Shown: one piece after another, positions 33,451 through 45,283 of the stretch
How the letters are laid out: the number at the start of each line of letters is the position of its first letter
Numbering within the stretch: position 1 is the first letter of the stretch
Virus record (IMG/VR): IMGVR_UViG_3300025138_000052
Span: 1 to 53,912 of that record
DNA: 53,912 nucleotides
Source of the DNA: a virus
Strand: one strand, 5' to 3'
Made by a program: the position numbers and the translations under genes
Notes under the pieces: model-generated
Databases searched by the model: none
Told to the model about the DNA's origin: nothing
What the model saw: the letters and a program-made list of their open reading frames with translations, nothing else

Positions 33451-33666
33451 ATGATAAAAGAACTAATAACATACAATCGTGGATTAAAAAACTTTGTTGA
33501 AGGAAAAATAATCCAATACATGGGAATACCATTTGAAGAACAAAATTCAGAACCTTTGTTTAACATAATTAATAAATATTTAGACGAAGCAGAAATCATA
33601 CAACTAAGAATAAATACTCTAGAAAGGATGGCCGATGTCGCAAAGAAAAGTAACACTAGTTTGTAA
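33451..33666 (+). CDS. Small helical protein, 71 aa
   Basis: MIKELITYNRGLKNFVEGKI, then a helix-rich remainder with NKYLDEAEIIQLRINTLER. ATG 33451 has AAAGGA at 6 bases; an ATG at 33436 sits only 6 bases after the -10 and would be leaderless. No known function. Overlaps the next gene by 32 bases. Confidence 0.5.
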   Translation: MIKELITYNRGLKNFVEGKIIQYMGIPFEEQNSEPLFNIINKYLDEAEIIQLRINTLERMADVAKKSNTSL

Positions 33667-33823
33667 GAATATATCACAAAAACAGTGGTCTAATCTTATC
33701 TTAGAATTGAACCTGATGAAAAAAGCCTGGGCTCCTTACGCAGGAATAAATATAGAAGGACACGGGATCAAGAAAATAATTGATTGGGGCACGAATAGTA
33801 CTTCTGAAAAATATAAAGTGTAA
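33635..33823 (+). CDS. Small phage protein, 62 aa
   Basis: MSQRKVTLVCKNISQKQWSN, then LILELNLMKKAWAPYAGINI, GIKKIIDWG. The LxLNLMKKAWxxYG and GIKKIIDWG blocks are recurring in other marine phage proteins that I recall. Ribosome site GAAAGGAT is within the preceding gene. Basic; function unknown. Confidence 0.5.
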   Translation: MSQRKVTLVCKNISQKQWSNLILELNLMKKAWAPYAGINIEGHGIKKIIDWGTNSTSEKYKV

Positions 33824-36896: not shown

Positions 36897-37232
36897 ATGA
36901 TTAAATCTAGGAGTAAGAAAAGAAAAACAAAGAACAAAAAAATAATACCCCTTAATTCTAAAGCCTCCACAGACGATATATCCAGGTACCCTTTCGTTGA
37001 AATAGAATGGTTTGATATTGAGTCAGATGCAAACTGGGTCGAAACAAAAGATTTAAGTGTAACAAAATTACCTCTATGTGTTTCAACAGGATATTTATTT
37101 AGTCAAAAGAAAGGTGTTACAAGAATTTTTTCTGATTATATTAAATCAAAAAACAAACCCACATTTGAAAATATTAGTGGAACAACAATAATACCTACTT
37201 CTGTTATTCAGTCGATTCGGAAGATTCGTTAG
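36897..37232 (+). CDS. Conserved phage protein, 111 aa
   Basis: Very basic N-terminus (RSKKRKTKNKKII), then SRYPFVEIEWFDIESDANWV, CVSTGYLFSQKKGVTRIFSD and a GTTIIPTSVIQSIRKIR end. The YPFVEIEWxDI...GYLFSQKKGxTRIF pattern is recurrent in phages; its function is unknown. No ribosome site. The last 29 bases overlap, antisense, the end of the small terminase gene. Confidence 0.6.
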   Translation: MIKSRSKKRKTKNKKIIPLNSKASTDDISRYPFVEIEWFDIESDANWVETKDLSVTKLPLCVSTGYLFSQKKGVTRIFSDYIKSKNKPTFENISGTTIIPTSVIQSIRKIR

Positions 37233-37722
37233 TTTCTGGTGCGGTTAAAGATTCTAATCTGTCTTTTTGTATTTCTTTAATACGTTTTATTTCTTCTAAT
37301 TTTTCAGCTCTAGTTAGATCATTTAAATTGCCATGAATATGTATATCCATGAATTGACCGGTTGCTTTACCTATTAAATTCTCAAACCCTAATGCCTTAT
37401 CAATCTTACCTTGTTGTACTAATTTCTCAGATAACACTTGCTGTCTTCTAACATAGTTATTTTTTGTTACTGTAAATGATCTGTTAACTTCATTTGATCT
37501 AGCCTGTAAGTACCTTTGAATTTTTGGGTTTTGCATGAGCTCCGACCCTTCTATTCTAGCTCGTTTAGGTTCGTATCCAGCTTGTATGGCCGCCTCTGTT
37601 CTAGTAGTCCTGCCTTCATTCATGATTAAATACTCACAAAATCTACGCTGCATTTCTGTAAGCTCTATTGGATAAGCCGCCTTTTTCTTGACAATTTCTT
37701 GACTCATACTTGCTTTATACAT
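37204..37722 (-). CDS. terS: Terminase small subunit
   Basis: A 172-residue protein: LTEMQRRFCEYLIMNEGR, TEAAIQAGYEPKRARIEGSE, LMQNPKIQRYLQAR are the helix-turn-helix part typical of Terminase_2. The C-terminal half is coiled coil. It binds the packaging site and recruits TerL, which lies 5 kb away and on the other strand. Start ATG 37722 is close to a -10; ATG 37707 is an alternative. Confidence 0.75.
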   Translation of the reverse strand: MYKASMSQEIVKKKAAYPIELTEMQRRFCEYLIMNEGRTTRTEAAIQAGYEPKRARIEGSELMQNPKIQRYLQARSNEVNRSFTVTKNNYVRRQQVLSEKLVQQGKIDKALGFENLIGKATGQFMDIHIHGNLNDLTRAEKLEEIKRIKEIQKDRLESLTAPETNESSESTE

Positions 37723-37984: not shown

Positions 37985-38422
37985 TTGGCTAAATTAGAGA
38001 AAGATTTGTGGTGTGAAGTTAAAAAATTTAAGAGCAAGATTAATTGGACAAGGCTGGAAAACCGTTGTTTATTTGGGACTCCTGACGTACTGGGTTACAA
38101 TAATAATGGACACTTTTTTCTTGTAGAGCTGAAGGTAACATCAGGTAACAAAATACGCTTTTCACCCCACCAAATAGCCTTTTTCGTACGTCATCCAAAA
38201 AACTCATTTGTCCTTGTTGCCCGGTCCCAGAAACCAGAACCAGGTTCAGAACCAGGTTCAGGAAAAAACAAAAATCGAAAAACAGGGCGGGCCCACCCTA
38301 AGCTTGTGCGCTTGTACCCTGGTTCCAGGATCCTGGAGCTTGTAGACTTAGGCCTCCAGCTTGAACCCTTGGCTTGTGGGCTTGAGGACTGCTTCGCCTT
38401 GCTTGAGGGCTTGGGAGCTTGA
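37985..38422 (+). CDS. VRR-NUC/resolvase-like nuclease with repeat insertion
   Basis: A 145-residue protein from a TTG start with AGAGG 5 bases upstream. LENRCLFGTPDVLGYNNNG (D), HFFLVELKVTSGNKI (E-x-K) and FSPHQIAFFVRHPKNSFVLV form a PD-(D/E)XK nuclease. Residues about 79-100 (KPEPGSEPGSG, then TGRAHP) come from G+C-rich repeat DNA, including one 15-bp element in frame. The remainder (LVRLYPGSRILELVDLGLQL) looks like the native end of the family. Confidence 0.65.
   Translation: MAKLEKDLWCEVKKFKSKINWTRLENRCLFGTPDVLGYNNNGHFFLVELKVTSGNKIRFSPHQIAFFVRHPKNSFVLVARSQKPEPGSEPGSGKNKNRKTGRAHPKLVRLYPGSRILELVDLGLQLEPLACGLEDCFALLEGLGA
38285..38299 (+). repeat. G-rich near-palindrome, copy 1 (in CDS)
   Basis: GGGCGGGCCCACCCT, inside the nuclease gene, in frame (encodes GRAHP). 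Symmetric about GGGCCC except at position 4 (C opposite A). Confidence 0.8.
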
Positions 38423-38430
38423 CGACTTAC

Positions 38431-38445
38431 GGGAGGGCCCACCCT
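38431..38445 (+). repeat. G-rich near-palindrome, copy 2
   Basis: GGGAGGGCCCACCCT followed by a T tract to 38452, 8 bases after the nuclease stop. Preceded by GCTTG repeats. Confidence 0.8.
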
Positions 38446-38452
38446 TTTTTTT

Positions 38453-38474
38453 AAGCTTGCACCCTTGCAAGCTT
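38453..38474. terminator. Stem-loop, candidate terminator between convergent genes
   Basis: AAGCTTGCA (38453-38461) and TGCAAGCTT (38466-38474) form a perfect 9-bp stem with loop CCCT. It lies between the rightward nuclease gene and the leftward GP88-like gene, and could stop transcription, though it has no typical U tract of its own. Confidence 0.45.
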
Positions 38475-38540
38475 GTGGCCCAGCCCCCTGGCGGTTTATT
38501 ATTTTCATTGATTATTTTGATTAGATTTTTAAGTTTCATA

Positions 38541-39152
38541 TTAATGAACCCCGTAAGCTATGTTTTTGATATCAGGGTCCCAGCAATTTCTACAATCTCC
38601 ACAATTGCCGCCTTGAGTTGGAGCCGGGCAGGTTGCATCTTTCGTTACTACGGTTGAAGTATTGCTCCAGGTACCAGCGGATGGCTGGTCGATCATAGTC
38701 ATAGATAAACGAATAATCAAATTTTTTGGGCATCTGGTTAAATGGTCCTTGATCCAGGCTTCTCGAGTTGGCATCCAATGCTGCATATCAGGCGTTAACC
38801 TACAAACGGCAAAAATTTTGTTTAGGTGGTCCAGGTCCTGGACGTCGCCGGCATCGTGCCATCTGAAAACTTTATGCTTTGAAACGGCTTCAGAATTAAT
38901 TACAACGGCCATAGCCTCCACCCATAACGGGTTTTTTATAGACTCAAGCCTTTTATATTGTGCTTGTACAATTGCAGGGAATCTTACATAATTATTTTTT
39001 AATGCATAGCAGCCCTCGCAAACGCTGTTAGGAATCAACCTAAGTTTGGCACCCGTTTTACATTCCGCTGCCGGGATCCCGTAAGCATAGCCCGGCATTT
39101 TCTCCGGCTTGCTCAATGATACTATTATTTTTTTTGCTTCTTTTATATTCAT
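38541..39152 (-). CDS. GP88-like cysteine-rich phage protein
   Basis: A 203-residue protein. MPGYAYGIPAAECKTGAKL, SVCEGCYALKNNYVRFP, VFRWHDAGDVQDLDHLNKIF and a C-terminal cysteine set (CPAPTQGGNCGDCRNC) match the GP88 family of phage proteins, which is widespread and of unknown activity; Cys spacing suggests a metal or Fe-S centre. Leftward gene with its own promoter (39208-39180). The C-terminal reading in other frames here is shadow. Confidence 0.7.
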   Translation of the reverse strand: MNIKEAKKIIVSLSKPEKMPGYAYGIPAAECKTGAKLRLIPNSVCEGCYALKNNYVRFPAIVQAQYKRLESIKNPLWVEAMAVVINSEAVSKHKVFRWHDAGDVQDLDHLNKIFAVCRLTPDMQHWMPTREAWIKDHLTRCPKNLIIRLSMTMIDQPSAGTWSNTSTVVTKDATCPAPTQGGNCGDCRNCWDPDIKNIAYGVH

Positions 39153-39179
39153 GTTTTTATATCCTTTTGATTTATATTC

Positions 39180-39208
39180 ATCCTACAATATCCCAGAACC
39201 CCTGTCAA
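39180..39208 (-). promoter_or_regulatory. Leftward promoter with tandem boxes
   Basis: On the minus strand TTGACA (39208-39203), 17 bases, TAGGAT (39185-39180). On the plus strand ATCCTA (39180-39185) and ATCCCA (39190-39195) are 10 bp apart. Drives the GP88-like gene. Confidence 0.65.
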
Positions 39209-39230
39209 GCTTGAACGCTTGCAGCCTTAC

Positions 39231-39245
39231 GGGAGGGCCCACCCT
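39231..39245 (+). repeat. G-rich near-palindrome, copy 3
   Basis: GGGAGGGCCCACCCT, end of the first tandem unit. Confidence 0.85.
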
Positions 39246-39271
39246 GAGAGCTTGAACGCTTGCAGCCTTAC

Positions 39272-39286
39272 GGGAGGGCCCACCCT
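39272..39286 (+). repeat. G-rich near-palindrome, copy 4
   Basis: GGGAGGGCCCACCCT, end of the second tandem unit, followed by seven more T. Confidence 0.85.
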
Positions 39287-39304
39287 TTTTTTTAAAAAAT
39301 TTTC

Positions 39305-39333
39305 CCGCATCAGTTGCATAGCAACCAATGCGG
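39305..39333 (-). terminator. Two-part stem-loop, leftward terminator
   Basis: CCGCAT/ATGCGG outer stem, a CA/CA internal loop, GTTGC/GCAAC inner stem and an ATA loop. On the minus strand it comes 22 bases after the stop of the 39356 gene and is followed shortly by an A4T6 tract, so it should end the leftward operon. TTTT also follows on the plus strand. Confidence 0.6.
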
Positions 39334-39355
39334 TTTTCCAACAGATTGGAATTCA

Positions 39356-39613
39356 TTAATCTAGAAGCGTGTAATATTGCTCAGTAAAATGGACCTGGAA
39401 CCAATGGATCCCCTTCCTTACAATATCATAATCTTCAGCTAGTTCAGCCTCCTTGATGGTGTCGTATACCGCGACCGCGTAACGGGGCAGCTCGCAGGAC
39501 TCACCGCTGTAAGGGTTGGTAACCTCCTCCATCCCAAACTTAGATGCTGGATCAGTCATCATAATTTTAAAGGGCAGCTTTTCAGCTGGTTTAAATATTT
39601 CTTTTAGTTTCAT
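39356..39613 (-). CDS. Small phage protein, 85 aa
   Basis: MKLKEIFKPAEKLPFKIMMT, then CELPRYAVAVYDTIKEAELA, GIHWFQVHFTEQYYTLLD. The aromatic C-terminus resembles a recurrent family in marine phages. ATG overlaps the upstream stop (ATGA), with GGAGGT as ribosome site. Third gene of the leftward operon. Confidence 0.6.
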   Translation of the reverse strand: MKLKEIFKPAEKLPFKIMMTDPASKFGMEEVTNPYSGESCELPRYAVAVYDTIKEAELAEDYDIVRKGIHWFQVHFTEQYYTLLD

Positions 39614-39780
39614 AGATTACCTCCTTGTATATCTTCAATCGTTGAATCATTATTTAAAGCTAAAATAATTTTTTCTTTTAAATTAGCGCTATCCTCCTGA
39701 ATACCTTCAGGAGGGGGCTCGTCTATGTTACAGTCTAGCCAGGTTAACACCATGTCAATGATGGCTTTTTCTTTAGTCAT
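39610..39780 (-). CDS. Small acidic protein, 56 aa
   Basis: MTKEKAIIDMVLTWLDCNID, EPPPEGIQEDSANLKEKIIL, ALNNDSTIEDIQGGNL. ATG 39780 with GGAGGC upstream; TGA overlaps the next ATG. Helical and acidic. Translation coupled to both neighbours. The function is unknown. Confidence 0.65.
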   Translation of the reverse strand: MTKEKAIIDMVLTWLDCNIDEPPPEGIQEDSANLKEKIILALNNDSTIEDIQGGNL

Positions 39781-39928
39781 TTTTAGCCTCCTTATTTTTG
39801 AGCATCTCTAATCTAGCATCTATTTCTTTAATGCTGTTTTGACTCTCAATGATTACTTTCATTAAGGCTATTTTATAGCAGTACAACTCGATTTGATTAC
39901 TGTCTTTTGTAACAAGTTCAACTTTCAT
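39773..39928 (-). CDS. Small helical protein, 51 aa
   Basis: MKVELVTKDSNQIELYCYKI, ALMKVIIESQNSIKEIDARL, ending EMLKNKEAKND. A helical protein with AGAAGGG upstream. First gene of a leftward operon, overlapping the next by 8 bases, under the promoter at 39984-39958. Similar heading to other marine phage helical micro-proteins. Confidence 0.6.
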   Translation of the reverse strand: MKVELVTKDSNQIELYCYKIALMKVIIESQNSIKEIDARLEMLKNKEAKND

Positions 39929-39957
39929 TTTTTTCCCTTCTGTTTAATTAGATCTTC

Positions 39958-39984
39958 AGTATAGGATATTATAGGATCTGTCAA
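39958..39984 (-). promoter_or_regulatory. Leftward promoter with tandem boxes
   Basis: On the minus strand TTGACA (39984-39979), 15 bases, TATACT (39963-39958). TAGGAT at 39962-39967 and 39972-39977 (plus strand) are 10 bp apart. Short spacer is unusual. Confidence 0.6.
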
Positions 39985-40003
39985 CTATTTATTTTCCCTG
40001 GTC

Positions 40004-40012
40004 TGTGGATAA
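40004..40012 (-). promoter_or_regulatory. DnaA box
   Basis: TGTGGATAA, exact complement of the DnaA consensus TTATCCACA, 16 bases before G-rich element copy 5. In the divergent gap between leftward and rightward operons. Confidence 0.6.
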
Positions 40013-40028
40013 CTCTTAAAAATTATAT

Positions 40029-40043
40029 GGGAGGGCCCACCCT
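40029..40043 (+). repeat. G-rich near-palindrome, copy 5
   Basis: GGGAGGGCCCACCCT, followed by GCTTGAGAGCTTGC. Confidence 0.85.
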
Positions 40044-40065
40044 GCTTGAGAGCTTGCTAATATTT

Positions 40066-40080
40066 GGGAGGGCCCACCCT
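40066..40080 (+). repeat. G-rich near-palindrome, copy 6
   Basis: GGGAGGGCCCACCCT, followed by GCTTGCAGCCTTAC. Confidence 0.85.
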
Positions 40081-40102
40081 GCTTGCAGCCTTACTATTAT
40101 CT

Positions 40103-40117
40103 GGGCGGGCCCACCCT
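40103..40117 (+). repeat. G-rich near-palindrome, copy 7
   Basis: GGGCGGGCCCACCCT followed by an A8 run. Copies 5, 6 and 7 are spaced by exactly 37 bp. Confidence 0.85.
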
Positions 40118-40161
40118 AAAAAAAATAAATTTAAATGCAACTATAAAGTGAAAAAATAGAC

Positions 40162-40190
40162 TTGACATATATCCTACAATATCCTATAAG
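40162..40190 (+). promoter_or_regulatory. Sigma-70 promoter with tandem ATCCTA
   Basis: TTGACA (40162-40167), 17 bases, TATAAG (40185-40190). ATCCTA at 40171-40176 and 40181-40186, 10 bp apart. Drives the rightward operon. Confidence 0.75.
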
Positions 40191-40212
40191 AAATACGGTT
40201 GCAAGGGTGGTC

Positions 40213-40290
40213 ATGAAAGACGGCAAAGTCGAGGGTAGCCCGAAATTGTGTTTTGAAAAACTTTCACATAAGAAACACGGCAACCACTAA
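40213..40290 (+). CDS. Leader peptide, 25 aa
   Basis: ATG 40213 after AAGGGTGG. MKDGKVEGSPKLCFEKLSHK then KHGNH. The leader runs from the promoter to ATG 40310, flanked by GGTTGC near 40198 and GCAACC near 40280, which could pair. It may be an attenuating peptide, or chance; no family is known. Confidence 0.35.
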   Translation: MKDGKVEGSPKLCFEKLSHKKHGNH

Positions 40291-40309
40291 ATAAACAGAA
40301 AGGAAAAAA

Positions 40310-40894
40310 ATGAAACCAATACGATCAAATGAACTAGAATTTTTTAAAGAATTAATTAATTCTAAATTCACAGATAAACAACGGTCACTTGATACTGAAA
40401 TAAACATTGAGGCAGAAAAGCTATCCGATAAAAGAAAAGGTGCTTTTGCTTCGGAGTGTGGTGTCAGTAAAGAGTTGAAAGCGTTGGAGCAAGCAGATAA
40501 AAAATATAGGGACTTTATAAGAACTAAAGACCAAGCAGAAAGACTACTTTTAGATAAAGTGGCTTTGATTGGTACTTCCTTGTCCGAGAAGCTAGGACGG
40601 TTGTCCAAGAATAGAGACTGGAACGACAGCTTTCACGATTTTAGTCCTAAGGAAGACGGCGTTGAATTTTTTATTACACGCCTAGATAATGCTTGTTATC
40701 GAGAAGCAGAAAGACACGTTAAAAAAGGGCATAAGTTATTTAATGCTTTAAAAGAAAAAAAGGACAATTGTAAATTAATTGTTCACACTGGAAGCGACAT
40801 ACAAACCACTGTTCAAACGCTTCAAACTGAAATGGGTAGCGCAGATATAAGGTTATCTATTCCTGATAAACTTTTACAGATAGCTGTAAAATAA
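40310..40894 (+). CDS. Helical phage protein, 194 aa
   Basis: A helical, charged protein (MKPIRSNELEFFKELINSKF, LSDKRKGAFASECG, KEDGVEFFITRLDNACYREA, SDIQTTVQTLQTEMG). AGAAAGGA as ribosome site. No enzyme motif. Its first part resembles 'MKPIRTNELxYF' proteins in related phages as I recall. Ends just before another tandem-box promoter. Confidence 0.5.
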   Translation: MKPIRSNELEFFKELINSKFTDKQRSLDTEINIEAEKLSDKRKGAFASECGVSKELKALEQADKKYRDFIRTKDQAERLLLDKVALIGTSLSEKLGRLSKNRDWNDSFHDFSPKEDGVEFFITRLDNACYREAERHVKKGHKLFNALKEKKDNCKLIVHTGSDIQTTVQTLQTEMGSADIRLSIPDKLLQIAVK

Positions 40895-40898
40895 GCAC

Positions 40899-40932
40899 TT
40901 GACATCCCTATCCTATTGGTTATAGGATAGGG
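40899..40932 (+). promoter_or_regulatory. Promoter with 11-bp inverted repeat
   Basis: TTGACA (40899-40904) then -10 TATAGG or TAGGAT (40921-40928). CCCTATCCTAT (40906-40916) and ATAGGATAGGG (40922-40932) are a perfect inverted repeat around 5 bases. A likely operator between -35 and -10. Confidence 0.65.
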
Positions 40933-40952
40933 TAACAACAGAAAGGTAAAAA

Positions 40953-41126
40953 ATGAACGATAAAAAAGCAGAAGCATTAGTTGATATTATGGCTAAGCAA
41001 AATAAGTTAATACTTTCAACTAGAGAACGATTAATTATATTAGAGCAAAAAAACAGAGCCCTAACTATTTTTACAGTGGTGTTATCTTTTTGCTTAATCA
41101 TTGGATTGGGGGTTATCAATGGTTAA
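40953..41126 (+). CDS. Small membrane protein, 57 aa
   Basis: MNDKKAEALVDIMAKQNKLI, then a helix and a C-terminal transmembrane segment (ALTIFTVVLSFCLIIGLGV). GAAAGGT ribosome site. N-in/C-out tail-anchored shape. Overlaps the next gene by 8 bases. Function unknown. Confidence 0.6.
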   Translation: MNDKKAEALVDIMAKQNKLILSTRERLIILEQKNRALTIFTVVLSFCLIIGLGVING

Positions 41127-41322
41127 TGGTGAAAGATTTATTATTACTTACTATGCTAAAAAGCATGGTAAGTTTGTCGATAGGCGCGGAACGTGGGATT
41201 TGAAATGCCGTTATTGGTTTTCAAAAACTATGCAACCATTAGTAACTTATTTTGATTTAGACGCTAATAGTTATAGGACTGCTTCGGGTTCGTATAGAGT
41301 GAAACGGGGACAAGATGTATAG
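41119..41322 (+). CDS. Small phage protein, 67 aa
   Basis: MVNGERFIITYYAKKHGKFV, DRRGTWDLKCRYWFSKT, FDLDANSYRTASGSYRV. An aromatic, basic beta-type protein; 'YFDLDANxYRtA' is a recurrent motif in small marine phage proteins. Start at 41119, within the preceding gene; a TTG at 41101 is less likely. Function unknown. Confidence 0.55.
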   Translation: MVNGERFIITYYAKKHGKFVDRRGTWDLKCRYWFSKTMQPLVTYFDLDANSYRTASGSYRVKRGQDV

Positions 41323-41440
41323 TTTAACATCTCTAATAGCTATTGCTCTATTTACCTTTGGTATATTTGTAATAGCTTTGTGTATGCTTCTAAATCATTT
41401 AGAGGATATTAACTATCAAGAAAGGAAAGGAAAACGATGA
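41315..41440 (+). CDS. Small membrane protein, 41 aa
   Basis: MYSLTSLIAIALFTFGIFVI, ALCMLLNHLEDINYQERKGK. One or two transmembrane spans, short charged tail. Starts inside the preceding gene and overlaps the next one by 4 bases (ATGA). Function unknown. Confidence 0.55.
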   Translation: MYSLTSLIAIALFTFGIFVIALCMLLNHLEDINYQERKGKR

Positions 41441-41595
41441 AAAAAATAAAATCATGGGCTATCGTTGTTGAGTGGGTTGAGAGGGTAGATGATAACGAAA
41501 CTTGGAACACAGAAACTATTACAGAAATTCCAAATGATGTTTCTCAACCAATAGATGATTGGTTAACTGAATATGAAAGTGAGGAAAACAAATGA
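41437..41595 (+). CDS. Small acidic protein, 52 aa
   Basis: MKKIKSWAIVVEWVERVDDN, then NTETITEIPNDVSQPIDDWL, TEYESEENK. ATGA overlap at both ends, with AGGAAAGGAAAACG upstream. The last 6 residues (ESEENK) recur in the next gene and are encoded by the repeated junction sequence. Confidence 0.6.
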   Translation: MKKIKSWAIVVEWVERVDDNETWNTETITEIPNDVSQPIDDWLTEYESEENK

Positions 41596-41747
41596 AACGA
41601 ATAAAAATATATGTTGAGGGTGGTGTAGTGCAAGATGTTATTTTTGAAGGGTTAATAAAAGATGAAGAAATGACTTATGAAGTTATTGACTATGATGAAA
41701 TAGACGCTACAAAAAATAAAAAAACAGAAAGTGAGGAAAACAAATGA
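41592..41747 (+). CDS. Small acidic protein, 51 aa
   Basis: MKRIKIYVEGGVVQDVIFEG, LIKDEEMTYEVIDYDEIDAT, ending KNKKTESEENK. Beta-alpha-like with an acidic middle. Same junction as the previous gene (GTGAGGAAAACAAATGA). Overlaps by ATGA at both ends. Confidence 0.6.
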   Translation: MKRIKIYVEGGVVQDVIFEGLIKDEEMTYEVIDYDEIDATKNKKTESEENK

Positions 41748-41953
41748 AACTAAAAACAGAAACATTTGAAATGACTGTGAAAGATAAAAAAGTAGAAGTC
41801 ACTCATCAAGGATTTAAATCATTCAAGGAACAGAAAGAAGGTTTAAACCAAGTAAAGGAGTGTATAGAAGAATCTATTAGTCAGGAAGAAAAGAAAGACG
41901 GATTTATTCCCTATAATAACTTTGAGTGTTCAGTTAGTTGGAAGTTAATATAA
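41744..41953 (+). CDS. Small phage protein, 69 aa
   Basis: MKLKTETFEMTVKDKKVEVT, HQGFKSFKEQKEGLNQVKEC, FECSVSWKLI. Beta start then helix. Last gene of the ATGA chain. A large stem-loop begins 6 bases after its stop, likely ending transcription or protecting the RNA. The function is unknown. Confidence 0.6.
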   Translation: MKLKTETFEMTVKDKKVEVTHQGFKSFKEQKEGLNQVKECIEESISQEEKKDGFIPYNNFECSVSWKLI

Positions 41954-41958
41954 TTTAA

Positions 41959-42002
41959 ACTACATCTAGTATGTCAAGCATTATCTACATACTAGATGTA
42001 GT
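41959..42002. terminator. Perfect 15-bp stem-loop downstream of micro-gene operon
   Basis: ACTACATCTAGTATG (41959-41973) pairs fully with 41988-42002 around a 14-base loop. The stem is AT-rich and there is no U tract directly after; G-rich element copy 8 with T8 follows 24 bases on. Terminator or RNA-stabilising structure. Confidence 0.5.
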
Positions 42003-42005
42003 GGC

Positions 42006-42014
42006 TTGTGGATT
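42006..42014 (-). promoter_or_regulatory. Near-consensus DnaA box
   Basis: TGTGGATTA, one mismatch to the DnaA box complement, 11 bases before G-rich element copy 8. Confidence 0.4.
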
Positions 42015-42025
42015 AAAATTTTATT

Positions 42026-42040
42026 GGGCGGGCCCACCCT
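42026..42040 (+). repeat. G-rich near-palindrome, copy 8
   Basis: GGGCGGGCCCACCCT followed by seven more T. Confidence 0.85.
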
Positions 42041-42057
42041 TTTTTTTATTTAAGAAG

Positions 42058-42066
42058 TTATCCACA
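42058..42066 (+). promoter_or_regulatory. DnaA box
   Basis: TTATCCACA, a perfect DnaA consensus, 17 bases after G-rich element copy 8. Confidence 0.6.
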
Positions 42067-42095
42067 GACCGATGAAAATAAAATTAAATTAGTTC

Positions 42096-42123
42096 TTGTT
42101 TATCCTATTAGATCCTATATAAC
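42096..42123 (+). promoter_or_regulatory. Promoter-like site with tandem ATCCTA
   Basis: Weak -35 TTGTTT (42096-42101), 16 bases, TATAAC (42118-42123). ATCCTA at 42102-42107 and 42112-42117 are 10 bp apart. Confidence 0.5.
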
Positions 42124-42150
42124 TTTACTTAACAACAGAAAGGAAAACAA

Positions 42151-42501
42151 ATGCCACTAGAAGTACACTACGTAAACGACAAATCTTGGAACCCGGAAAC
42201 TGAAAAGTTTGACGATCCAAAATTAAGAAATGAGGCGGATGATATTGGTCACATATTAATGTTGATTGGTATTACTGAGGTAACTGATCAGACAATCCCA
42301 GAGATCATAATCAGAAGCATGATTTTGGACAGGGTGTATAATAACAAGGAAAGAAAACCTGAAGTGTTCACTGCTCCTTTACAAAGACACATAGGTTTAA
42401 AAATTGAGGGAAAATGGGCGGGCAACGAGACTCGTTGGAAGTTCACATCTCGTATTGCCAAAGGTATGATGCATGATATTGCTAACACGGTGTTGAACTA
42501 A
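42151..42501 (+). CDS. Conserved phage protein, 116 aa
   Basis: MPLEVHYVNDKSWNPETEKF, NEADDIGHILMLIGITEVTD, VFTAPLQRHIGLK, RIAKGMMHDIANTVLN. Helical and soluble with no recognised enzyme motif. AAAGGAAAA ribosome site under a tandem-box promoter. Similar 'TIPEIIIRSMILDRVYN' proteins exist in marine phages. Followed by a strong hairpin. Confidence 0.5.
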   Translation: MPLEVHYVNDKSWNPETEKFDDPKLRNEADDIGHILMLIGITEVTDQTIPEIIIRSMILDRVYNNKERKPEVFTAPLQRHIGLKIEGKWAGNETRWKFTSRIAKGMMHDIANTVLN

Positions 42502-42508
42502 CCCAGCT

Positions 42509-42534
42509 GGGGGTATGTAGAAAGGCATACCCCC
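42509..42534. terminator. Hairpin after 42151 gene
   Basis: GGGGGTATG (42509-42517) and CATACCCCC (42526-42534) form a perfect 9-bp stem with an 8-base loop. Starts 8 bases after the stop. No U tract. Confidence 0.55.
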
Positions 42535-42564
42535 ACATATAGTGTCTATCACTTTATAGTTGTA

Positions 42565-42573
42565 TGTGGATAA
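42565..42573 (-). promoter_or_regulatory. DnaA box
   Basis: TGTGGATAA, complement of the consensus DnaA box, 9 bases before G-rich element copy 9. Confidence 0.6.
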
Positions 42574-42582
42574 AAGAATACT

Positions 42583-42597
42583 GGGCGGGCCCACCCC
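42583..42597 (+). repeat. G-rich near-palindrome, copy 9
   Basis: GGGCGGGCCCACCCC, differing only in the last base. The rightmost copy, upstream of terL. Confidence 0.8.
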
Positions 42598-42674
42598 CAA
42601 TGTATGTAGTATTCAATAGAGGTACCAGACCGATCCATTACAAGTATTGACTTTATAAAAGTCGACCCCCCTTT

Positions 42675-42703
42675 TTGACAGATAGGGATCCTAAGCCTAG
42701 TAT
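42675..42703 (+). promoter_or_regulatory. Promoter for terminase/head genes
   Basis: TTGACA (42675-42680), 17 bases, TAGTAT (42698-42703). No clear tandem ATCCTA, only one GATCCTA (42688-42693). The leader is about 45 bases to terL. A hairpin GACTTT/AAAGTC (about 42649-42662) precedes it. Confidence 0.6.
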
Positions 42704-42756: not shown

Positions 42757-44235
42757 ATGCAAAAAAATATTACAAAAAATTTAGATGGATTGACTCCAGA
42801 TGAAAGTGCTAAATTACTAGAGCTTGAACGCAGCGTTGCTTTAGATGAGGCTCGCCCAAATATTACAAAAAATTTTTTAAGTTTTGTCAAATATGTTTGG
42901 CCAGAATTCATTGAAGGTTCTCACCACAAAATTATTAATAAAAAATTTAACGATTTGGCTAAGGGTAAGATCAAACGTCTTATTATCAATATGCCACCAA
43001 GACATACCAAATCAGAATTTGCATCCTATCTATTACCTGCATGGATGATTGGAAAAAACCCAAAGCTAAAAATTATTCAAGCTACTCACACAGCAGACTT
43101 AGCCATTGACTTTGGACGTAAGACCAAGAACTTGGTTGACCAAGATGATTATAAAGAACTTTTTGAAACCAGACTACAGGAAGATAGTCAGGCAGCAGGG
43201 AAATGGAAAACCGATCAAGGAGGTGAATACTTTGCAGCCGGTGTAGGTGGAGCAATCACGGGTCGTGGTGCCGATTTATTGATTATTGATGACCCACATA
43301 AAGAACAAGATATTAGAGCTGACAGTAAAGCTTTTGAAAAAGCTATGAACTGGTATACGGCTGGTCCACGTCAACGTTTACAACCTGGTGGAGCTATCGT
43401 TATTGTAATGACAAGATGGTCTACCAAAGATGTAACCGGACAATTATTAAAAGCACAGAGTGAAGAAGGATCAGATCAATGGGATGTAGTGGAATTACCA
43501 GCCCTGCTCCCCGATGGAAAACCCGTGTGGCCTGAGTTCTGGACGGCGCAAGAATTACTTAAGACGAAAGCATCTATTCCAGTTACTAACTGGAATGCAC
43601 AATACATGCAACAACCGACCGGGGACGAGGGAGCTTTAATTAAAAGAGAATGGTGGAAAGACTGGACTTCCAAATATCCACCGCCAACCGAATATATTAT
43701 TCAATCTTATGACACCGCGTTTACCAAAGGAACCAAATCAGATTACAGTGCTATTACCACTTGGGGTGTTTTTACCACGGAAGAGGGTGGACAGAATTTA
43801 ATATTGATGGATGCTTTTAAAGCTCGATATGAATTTCCAGAGCTTAGACGTTTTGCTTATCAACAATATTTAGATTGGAAACCGGATATGGTAATCATTG
43901 AAGCCAAAGCTTCGGGTCTACCTTTAACCCATGAGCTTAGACAAATGGATATCCCTGTTATTAACTTCACTCCTTCACGTGGAAATGATAAACATGTACG
44001 TGTGAATTCTGTTGCACCTTTATTTGAATCTGGTAAGATATGGGCTCCAATGCATGAACATTTTGCTCAAGAGGTAGTTGAGGAATGTGCGTCGTTCCCT
44101 TTTGGGGAACATGATGACTATGTAGATAGTACCACACAGGCGATCATGCGTATTAGACAGGGTGGTATGGTTCGACATCCTGAAGATTATAAAGATGAAC
44201 CGGTAGTAAGAGGCGAAATAAAATATTATGGTTAA
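42757..44235 (+). CDS. terL: Terminase large subunit
   Basis: A 492-residue motor/nuclease. ATPase: Walker A PPRHTKS (80-86), Walker B LLIIDDP (174-180), and an arginine-rich RWSTKD near 220. RNase H-like nuclease: QSYDTAF (D319), MVIIEAKASG (E382), and HDDYVDS (452-458). Cuts and pumps concatemeric DNA into the prohead with TerS (37204, other strand). Weak ribosome site. The next gene overlaps its end by 8 bases. Confidence 0.92.
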   Translation: MQKNITKNLDGLTPDESAKLLELERSVALDEARPNITKNFLSFVKYVWPEFIEGSHHKIINKKFNDLAKGKIKRLIINMPPRHTKSEFASYLLPAWMIGKNPKLKIIQATHTADLAIDFGRKTKNLVDQDDYKELFETRLQEDSQAAGKWKTDQGGEYFAAGVGGAITGRGADLLIIDDPHKEQDIRADSKAFEKAMNWYTAGPRQRLQPGGAIVIVMTRWSTKDVTGQLLKAQSEEGSDQWDVVELPALLPDGKPVWPEFWTAQELLKTKASIPVTNWNAQYMQQPTGDEGALIKREWWKDWTSKYPPPTEYIIQSYDTAFTKGTKSDYSAITTWGVFTTEEGGQNLILMDAFKARYEFPELRRFAYQQYLDWKPDMVIIEAKASGLPLTHELRQMDIPVINFTPSRGNDKHVRVNSVAPLFESGKIWAPMHEHFAQEVVEECASFPFGEHDDYVDSTTQAIMRIRQGGMVRHPEDYKDEPVVRGEIKYYG

Positions 44236-45283
44236 TAAAACTTTATTAGAAATTGCAGTAAAACTAGCTCAAAGGCTTGGTGCTAATCCATCCAAGTTCC
44301 TCGGCACCAAAACAAACGTTGATTTCCTGGGATCAGGGCCCAAGGATGGAATGCTATTTCAACAAAACATTAACCCAGAAGCATATTTAAAAATTGGTAA
44401 AGAAAAAGTATTACCCATGATTGAGGATTCTATGGGCTATTTTTCTGGTGGTAAATTAAACAATGTTCAAGGACAGAAATTAATAGATAATATGAACGTC
44501 ATGCTAGACCTTGAGAAAAAAATGCCTCAGTTACCAGGGACCGGGGGACTGGGATCTCTAAAAGAGACTCCTGAGATAGCTTCCGTACTACCGGGTCCAG
44601 AAGCAGGATACAAATTTTCAAAACCTATGTCTACTAGAGATAAATTTAAAAAAGCATATAGAGATGGTGATCTCACTGGAAATAGAAAAGGCCGTCAAAA
44701 TGCAGTGGATCTATCTCCTAATGCACCACCAGGTACAATACCCGCTCCTAAACAAAAAGGTAATAAATATTCCAAAGCATTTGCAGCAGCTTCTAGTTTA
44801 GATATGCAAGGCAAACCTTTAACACAAGTATATAAAAATATAGCTAAGATAAAAAAGGAAGAGGATGCTAGTAAACAAGTATTAAAATCATCACTTGAGC
44901 AACAAAGCATCATTAGTGAATATTTAGAAACATTAGCTTTCTACAGACAAAAATTTGGAGCGAAAAAAGGTCCTGTTCAATTGAACAAAGATTATAAAAA
45001 ATTTTTCCCTGAAAAATTTAAATTCCTTTTCCCTGAAAAAAAAGCAGAAGGCGGAAGAATAGGATTTTCAAATGCAGGTATTGTTCCAGGAACTAATAAC
45101 AAACTTCGGTATAGTAAAAATTTAATGCAAGAATATAAAGCAAATGTAGATGAAGGATATGAAGGATCGGTTGATGATTATATTAGAGAATTTTATGGTG
45201 AACAATATTTAGATCCAAGTTATGCTAAAGGCGGAAGAGTAGGTTTTTCAAAAGGCGGTCTTGCTAAAATCTTGGAGTTGTAA
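44228..45283 (+). CDS. Conserved head-region protein with GGR motifs
   Basis: A 351-residue basic protein. The N-terminal part (MVNKTLLEIAVKLAQRLGAN, GYFSGGKLNNVQGQKLIDN) is helical; the C-terminus has AEGGRIGFSNAG and AKGGRVGFSKGGLAKILEL. These short GGRxGF motifs recur in other proteins here. Position between TerL and portal suggests a head or packaging factor. Start overlaps terL; the stop overlaps the next start (TAATG). Confidence 0.5.
   Translation: MVNKTLLEIAVKLAQRLGANPSKFLGTKTNVDFLGSGPKDGMLFQQNINPEAYLKIGKEKVLPMIEDSMGYFSGGKLNNVQGQKLIDNMNVMLDLEKKMPQLPGTGGLGSLKETPEIASVLPGPEAGYKFSKPMSTRDKFKKAYRDGDLTGNRKGRQNAVDLSPNAPPGTIPAPKQKGNKYSKAFAAASSLDMQGKPLTQVYKNIAKIKKEEDASKQVLKSSLEQQSIISEYLETLAFYRQKFGAKKGPVQLNKDYKKFFPEKFKFLFPEKKAEGGRIGFSNAGIVPGTNNKLRYSKNLMQEYKANVDEGYEGSVDDYIREFYGEQYLDPSYAKGGRVGFSKGGLAKILEL

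Follow-up and report, generated by a model that had tools for sequence, protein, structure and literature searches.

An asymmetric repeat of one fixed orientation, GGG(A/C)GGGCCCACCC(T/C), occurs between the genes for the small (TerS) and large (TerL) terminase subunits in the IMG/VR virus record IMGVR_UViG_3300025138_000052 (positions 1-53,912; this whole 53,912-base stretch is referred to as the window). Nine copies are present, every one on the plus strand. We tentatively interpret the repeat as an asymmetric operator for a phage protein that would control the promoters of the terminase block, with a rough probability of 0.45. Reading by a phage protein fits the invariance, polarity and phage-only distribution of the sites. 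Of the single accounts, transcriptional control fares best, given the promoter geometry described below and the fact that gp30, gp33 (the GP88 homologue) and gp34 of the same block in the cultured phage HTVC027P fall into temporal classes of their own (PMC12753301).

Copy 1 (38285-38299, C at the fourth position) lies where a rightward nuclease-like gene converges on the 3' end of the leftward GP88 gene; it is followed by copy 2 (38431-38445, A), which runs into a T tract. Copies 3 (39231-39245, A) and 4 (39272-39286, A) are 41 base pairs (bp) apart as part of a local direct duplication; the former lies upstream of a leftward promoter, at 22 bp from its -35 box and with two GCTTG units between, and the latter again precedes a T tract. 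Copies 5 (40029-40043, A) and 6 (40066-40080, A) are found 37 bp apart in the divergent control region, copy 5 beside a DnaA-box-like TTATCCACA, and after another 37 bp copy 7 (40103-40117, C) is followed by an A tract. Copy 8 (42026-42040, C) sits between rightward genes and is followed by a T tract and TTATCCACA. Copy 9 (42583-42597, C, with C also as last base) is 174 bp upstream of the TerL start, a position kept in nearly all relatives. The guanine plus cytosine (G+C) content of the region around the repeat is 33-42%. Scanning both strands of all 53,912 bases with up to two mismatches yielded no further copy (chance expectation 0.03), the single extra match being copy 1 read in reverse. 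These results reproduce an earlier sequence-only reading of this DNA with respect to all nine coordinates, the plus strand and the tracts (eight Ts after copies 2, 4 and 8, As after copy 7), and the repeat, which that reading had not noticed elsewhere in the window, is indeed absent there even with two mismatches.

The same reading had described a directional near-palindrome with its asymmetry at position 4. Directionality is strongly supported. Position 4 turned out to be free (C > A > T > G), however, whereas position 11 is always A, and the palindrome-like look is secondary: the site is an asymmetric core, GGGCCCACCC, whose halves are not interchangeable. Its ten positions are invariant or nearly so, while the flanks are variable. 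Pooled over all loci, 425 distinct sites were found in the forward direction (358 from the window-type group, 67 from a group typified by 023Pt_psg01) and no non-palindromic site was reversed; these pooled counts include related sequences and do not represent independent events. All 17 apparent reversals correspond to the perfect palindrome GGGTGGGCCCACCC. A flipped form was never seen in the pooled sites even though this palindromic intermediate exists, and every site carries A at position 11; both observations speak for a maintained orientation. Within each multi-copy contig only one orientation occurs (82/82 low-G+C IMG/VR loci), and in all loci with a TerL match (90/90, some of them overlapping) the motif is on the same strand as TerL. 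Orientation is the same between gene pairs of all four arrangements, (-,-), (-,+), (+,-) and (+,+). In 023Pt_psg01, five sites of the form GGGCCCACCC-N-CCC are present at homologous places, all in one orientation. This form is common to a group of contigs related to 023Pt_psg01 and is preceded by a CTTG/CTCG box. As these sites carry their NCCC extension on the right at homologous places, the shared core is, judged by this comparison, GGGCCCACCC, extended to the left (GGGN) in one lineage and to the right (NCCC) in the other.

Fixed direction would come naturally to an RNA element, and the eight-T tracts after 3/9 window copies would suit a hairpin on the rightward strand acting as intrinsic terminator or in put/nut-like antitermination. 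We consider this very improbable. The hairpin is no more stable than shuffled sequences (z -0.4 and +0.9), positions 4/11 are more often mismatched than paired, and among 135 copies away from TerL a T tract follows only 9 compared with 55 followed by an A tract of six or more. An intrinsic terminator in particular was rejected on the folding result and the rarity of T tracts.

The window phage is, judged by its proteins, a pelagiphage related to HTVC027P and 023Pt_psg01. Its TerL is 64% identical to that of either phage, with a lower value for HTVC023P, and its PolA and portal proteins are both 64% identical to their HTVC027P counterparts. Searches against Pfam and PHROGs identified TerS, TerL, an SU10-like portal, a DNA polymerase A and a GP88-family protein. 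By TerL, PolA, portal and conserved gene order the phage groups with the HTVC023P-type pelagiphages, which have two cultured members, HTVC023P and HTVC027P (PMC9599517), and it shares the TerS/GP88/TerL block with HTVC027P; the two cultured phages, in contrast, lack the motif. Among bacterial genomes only one relative was found, in the SAR11 single cell AG-422-I02; this 59.5-kb contig (TerL 79% identical) carries four motif copies while the remainder of that genome carries none.

An exact-motif scan of IMG/VR, which favours intact cores, returned at least 120 loci, most of them metagenomic fragments. Among the matches listed, 107 were low-G+C loci, 82 of which held more than one copy, and 105 of the 107 matched genes of the window phage type; L066, one of the remaining two, belongs to a record with such genes, giving 106/107. 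Another 13 matches of high G+C content were all single-copy and were set aside as chance G+C-rich 15-mers. In a TerL-based clade sample, drawn partly from motif scans and partly from TerL searches, the 14-mer was present within 400 bp upstream of TerL in 97/100 window-clade sequences (dereplicated), 2/60 HTVC027P-clade sequences and 0/57 HTVC023P-clade sequences. Three changes are required to account for the core on the TerL tree, where the window clade, L063 and 023Pt possess it but the HTVC023P clade and the remaining HTVC027P clade do not. Within the window clade the core is lost in L220, where the block is rearranged with TerS on the same strand as TerL and 1.9 kb from it. The two other clades possess one-strand repeats of their own in the same block, namely GCTTGNNGCTTG in the HTVC027P clade (215 forward, 0 reverse) and AACTAACAA in the HTVC023P clade (87 forward, 0 reverse, in 50 blocks, for example L130). 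No copy of the motif was found in 195/197 SAR11-family genomes, which speaks against a host motif; of the two exceptions, one is the phage contig itself and the other a lone match on a contig that has no genes of the phage block. We found neither the sequence GGGCGGGCCCACCC nor anything relevant on pelagiphage packaging sites or intergenic palindromes in open-licence PubMed Central (PMC) papers, and the motif is not described in the literature searched.

This distribution also bears on whether the repeat might be a functionless selfish or passive element spread by local duplication. Local direct duplications do occur in the window (39206-39245 and 39247-39286), and a small mobile repeat had been among the suggestions of the sequence-only reading. 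However, the repeat is confined to one TerS-TerL block of 4-6 kb, has no common flanks beyond the GCTTG repeats and, apart from the one isolated match, occurs neither elsewhere in the phage nor in SAR11 genomes. Across phages with TerL identities of about 60-65%, its places are fixed and its core is invariant, and a sister clade has retained the core at homologous places while extending it differently. The copies are thus neither scattered nor found in both orientations, and we regard a selfish origin as extremely unlikely. No comparable density elsewhere in the genome was found and the nearest relatives keep the repeat, so that neither of the outcomes named beforehand as refuting the observation came about. 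Terminator hairpin, mobile repeat and host motif are all disfavoured. The proposal of an origin, packaging or transcription element named the right class of explanation without choosing among the three.

Evidence for a role in transcription comes from the anatomy of the block, which is bordered on the left by the TerS gene (37204-37722, minus strand; PHROG and Pfam matches) and on the right by the TerL gene (42757-44235, plus strand; PHROG, Pfam and sequence comparison), with the GP88-family gene (PF17338; 38541-39152, minus strand; Pfam match) between them. Two places in the block are preferred by the motif, the 400 bp next to TerL (138 sites in 90/92 contigs) and the interval from the 5' end of GP88 to the first rightward gene (114 sites in 48 contigs). 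Promoters were assigned as consensus matches to a sigma70-like pattern, TTGACA-N15-19-TANNNT. The motif lies within 70 bp upstream of 54/119 leftward promoters compared with 4/75 rightward ones, and two or more GCTTG units accompany 64/119 leftward promoters and 0/75 rightward ones. In the window, the leftward promoter before the GP88 gene, TTGACA-N17-TAGGAT, has its -35 box at 39203-39208 and its -10 box at 39180-39185 (minus strand). GCTTG boxes precede motif copies away from TerL at 8-9, 15-17 and 23-24 bp. The distance from -35 box to motif shows a period of 7.25-7.5 bp (R 0.46; 0/5000 simulations as high) and none at 10.5 bp. The period corresponds to the 7/8 bp at which the GCTTG units are spaced, since these units form an array that begins at the -35 box and is capped by the motif. 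The arrays themselves, seven/eight-base direct GCTTGNN repeats on one strand (38300-39290 and 40040-40100), are found in the window and HTVC027P clades alike (for example L129:16499-17446). A rightward sigma70-like promoter, TTGACA-N17-TATAAG, is located at 40162-40190 on the plus strand. In addition, a conserved -35/-10-like pair was recognized by eye between TerL and the GGGRTCC element described below.

Based on this geometry, we propose that a phage-encoded protein reads the asymmetric core GGGCCCACCC and would sit upstream of the leftward promoters driving the GP88-side genes, with the GCTTG repeats between its site and the -35 box. The same protein may also bind the TerL promoter region, and its binding would set the timing and direction of block transcription. 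Several observations weigh against such an operator. The orientation of the motif tracks the genome and not the strand of nearby genes, copies 1 and 2 have no adjoining leftward promoter, and neither do most TerL-proximal sites. Further, leftward promoters and motifs share the same intergenic space and their association is thus partly one of location, while HTVC027P lacks the motif despite having the same gene block and GCTTG repeats.

Packaging is an alternative that we hold to be unlikely, in which the copies would be TerS binding sites of a pac-type region; as packaging would proceed in a single direction, starting between terS and terL, directional sites would be expected. In agreement with this, the sites are directional, near the terminase genes and confined to the interval between TerS and TerL, where they adjoin a unique two-part element. 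The first part, AGAGGTACC (42618-42626, plus strand), occurs once per genome upstream of TerL in three clades (94/100 window-clade, 50/60 HTVC027P-clade and 53/57 HTVC023P-clade sequences). The second, GGGRTCC (GGGATCC at 42685-42691, plus strand), is located 65-67 bp downstream in the window clade, the DNA in between being AT-rich; the HTVC027P clade has a distance of 63-65 bp. A two-part element of this kind resembles the spaced TerS sites of cos/pac regions. Moreover, headful packaging would be in keeping with the near-complete contigs, which share no common ends and read as circular. On the other hand, the motif is invariant although TerS identity among motif-bearing phages can be as low as about 30%, and eight copies are present in a phage whose TerS shares 72% identity with its counterpart in motif-less HTVC027P; co-variation of motif and TerS was not seen. 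Contig ends do not pile up at the motif, fixed genome ends at the motif were not seen among the contigs, and copies spread over 4 kb would be unusual for pac. The pair ATAGAGGTACCA and GGG(A/G)TCC with its AT-rich spacer (42618-42691) is conserved more widely than the motif, being present also in L129, L130 and most TerL-upstream loci, and could represent a pac/cos site or late-promoter operators. L220 lacks the motif, AGAGGTACC and GGGRTCC all together.

A replication origin, in which motifs and GCTTG repeats would be iteron-like initiator sites and host DnaA boxes with A/T tracts a melting region, likewise appears possible but doubtful. The motif copies are direct repeats, as iterons are, and the A tracts counted above would fit easy melting. 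DnaA-box-like TTATCCACA reaches a density within 100 bp of the motif that is 12 times that of the remaining block (15 in 44 kb vs 9 in 309 kb; scrambled controls 0-4), and all three boxes of the window block (40004-40012, minus; 42058-42066, plus; 42565-42573, minus) are within about 25 bp of a copy. Yet such boxes accompany the motif in only 13/92 contigs, copy spacing is irregular and no initiator gene was identified. Third-position GC skew showed no clear switch at the block and is uninformative as an origin test. In some relatives, a conserved TGTGGATAAC(C/T)TAAATTAA is present about 0.7-1 kb upstream of TerL. Roles in transcription, packaging and replication could also be combined in one control block.

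As to the protein that may read the motif, a weak candidate is a 62-residue protein encoded at 33635-33823 on the plus strand, which is present in every motif-bearing contig reaching its place (15/15). Its family (62-76 residues) was found in 8/8 motif-bearing genomes compared and in 023Pt_psg01, and is absent from four HTVC027P-clade genomes and HTVC023P. Since four contigs whose covered block lacks the motif (L420, L423, L469 and L487) carry it as well, the protein can be at most necessary and not sufficient. The AlphaFold2 model consists of two helices (predicted local distance difference test score, pLDDT, 85), and a Foldseek search of this model against the PDB gave no match. The association is a lead only because the protein was picked after comparing many. 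TerS was not retained as reader: co-occurrence and trees of TerL, TerS, GP88, the nuclease and an exonuclease singled out no partner. The protein encoded just 3' of TerL (44228-45283) has a conserved 92-residue N-terminus and C-terminal GGRxGF repeats and occurs in motif-bearing genomes while being absent from HTVC027P and HTVC023P; it looks like a virion protein and was likewise set aside as reader. In a more far-reaching version, which we think quite improbable, the motif would be a strictly polar 10-bp code of uncultured lineages within a highly abundant type of marine phage, read by a previously unknown small phage protein such as that at 33635-33823 and tying transcription direction, replication and packaging together in one terminase-flanked block, with sister lineages substituting the one-strand repeats GCTTGNN (HTVC027P clade) or AACTAACAA (HTVC023P clade).

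SAR11 is the most abundant marine bacterial group and, to our knowledge, the ways in which its phages control early genes, replication and packaging are little understood. The early genes of HTVC027P are all of unknown function (PMC12753301). An invariant one-way site at a conserved place offers a handle here, as a short probe could be used to pull down the reader protein. As a marker the motif further separates the HTVC023P-type lineages, and it provides a map of the control region that can be tested.

Several known systems share features with the repeat. Like repetitive extragenic palindromes (REP), it is short, G+C-rich, palindrome-like and intergenic, whereas it has fixed polarity, forms no two-orientation bacterial interspersed mosaic elements (BIMEs) and is restricted to one phage block. 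With iteron origins (lambda ori, P1 oriR, RK2 oriV) it has in common direct repeats with DnaA boxes and A/T tracts nearby; its copies, however, are irregularly spaced in two separate clusters, with DnaA boxes in a minority only. The R sites of lambda cosB and the pac sites of SPP1 and P22 are directional terminase recognition sites near terminase genes, and the TerL-side copies stand beside a conserved two-part element. In contrast to those sites, the repeat is present in up to nine copies over 4 kb, stays invariant while TerS diverges and has no fixed ends seen. Cluster A mycobacteriophages carry stoperators (L5, TipsytheTRex; PMC9283540), which are likewise short asymmetric sites in many copies, located in promoter regions and short intergenic spaces. 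Their 13-mer consensus is at chance level here and not enriched, and no repressor homologue was identified. Site orientation matters in both systems, with the difference that stoperators are 13-mers distributed genome-wide and oriented with transcription, while the repeat described here is a 10-14-mer of a single block, oriented with the genome.

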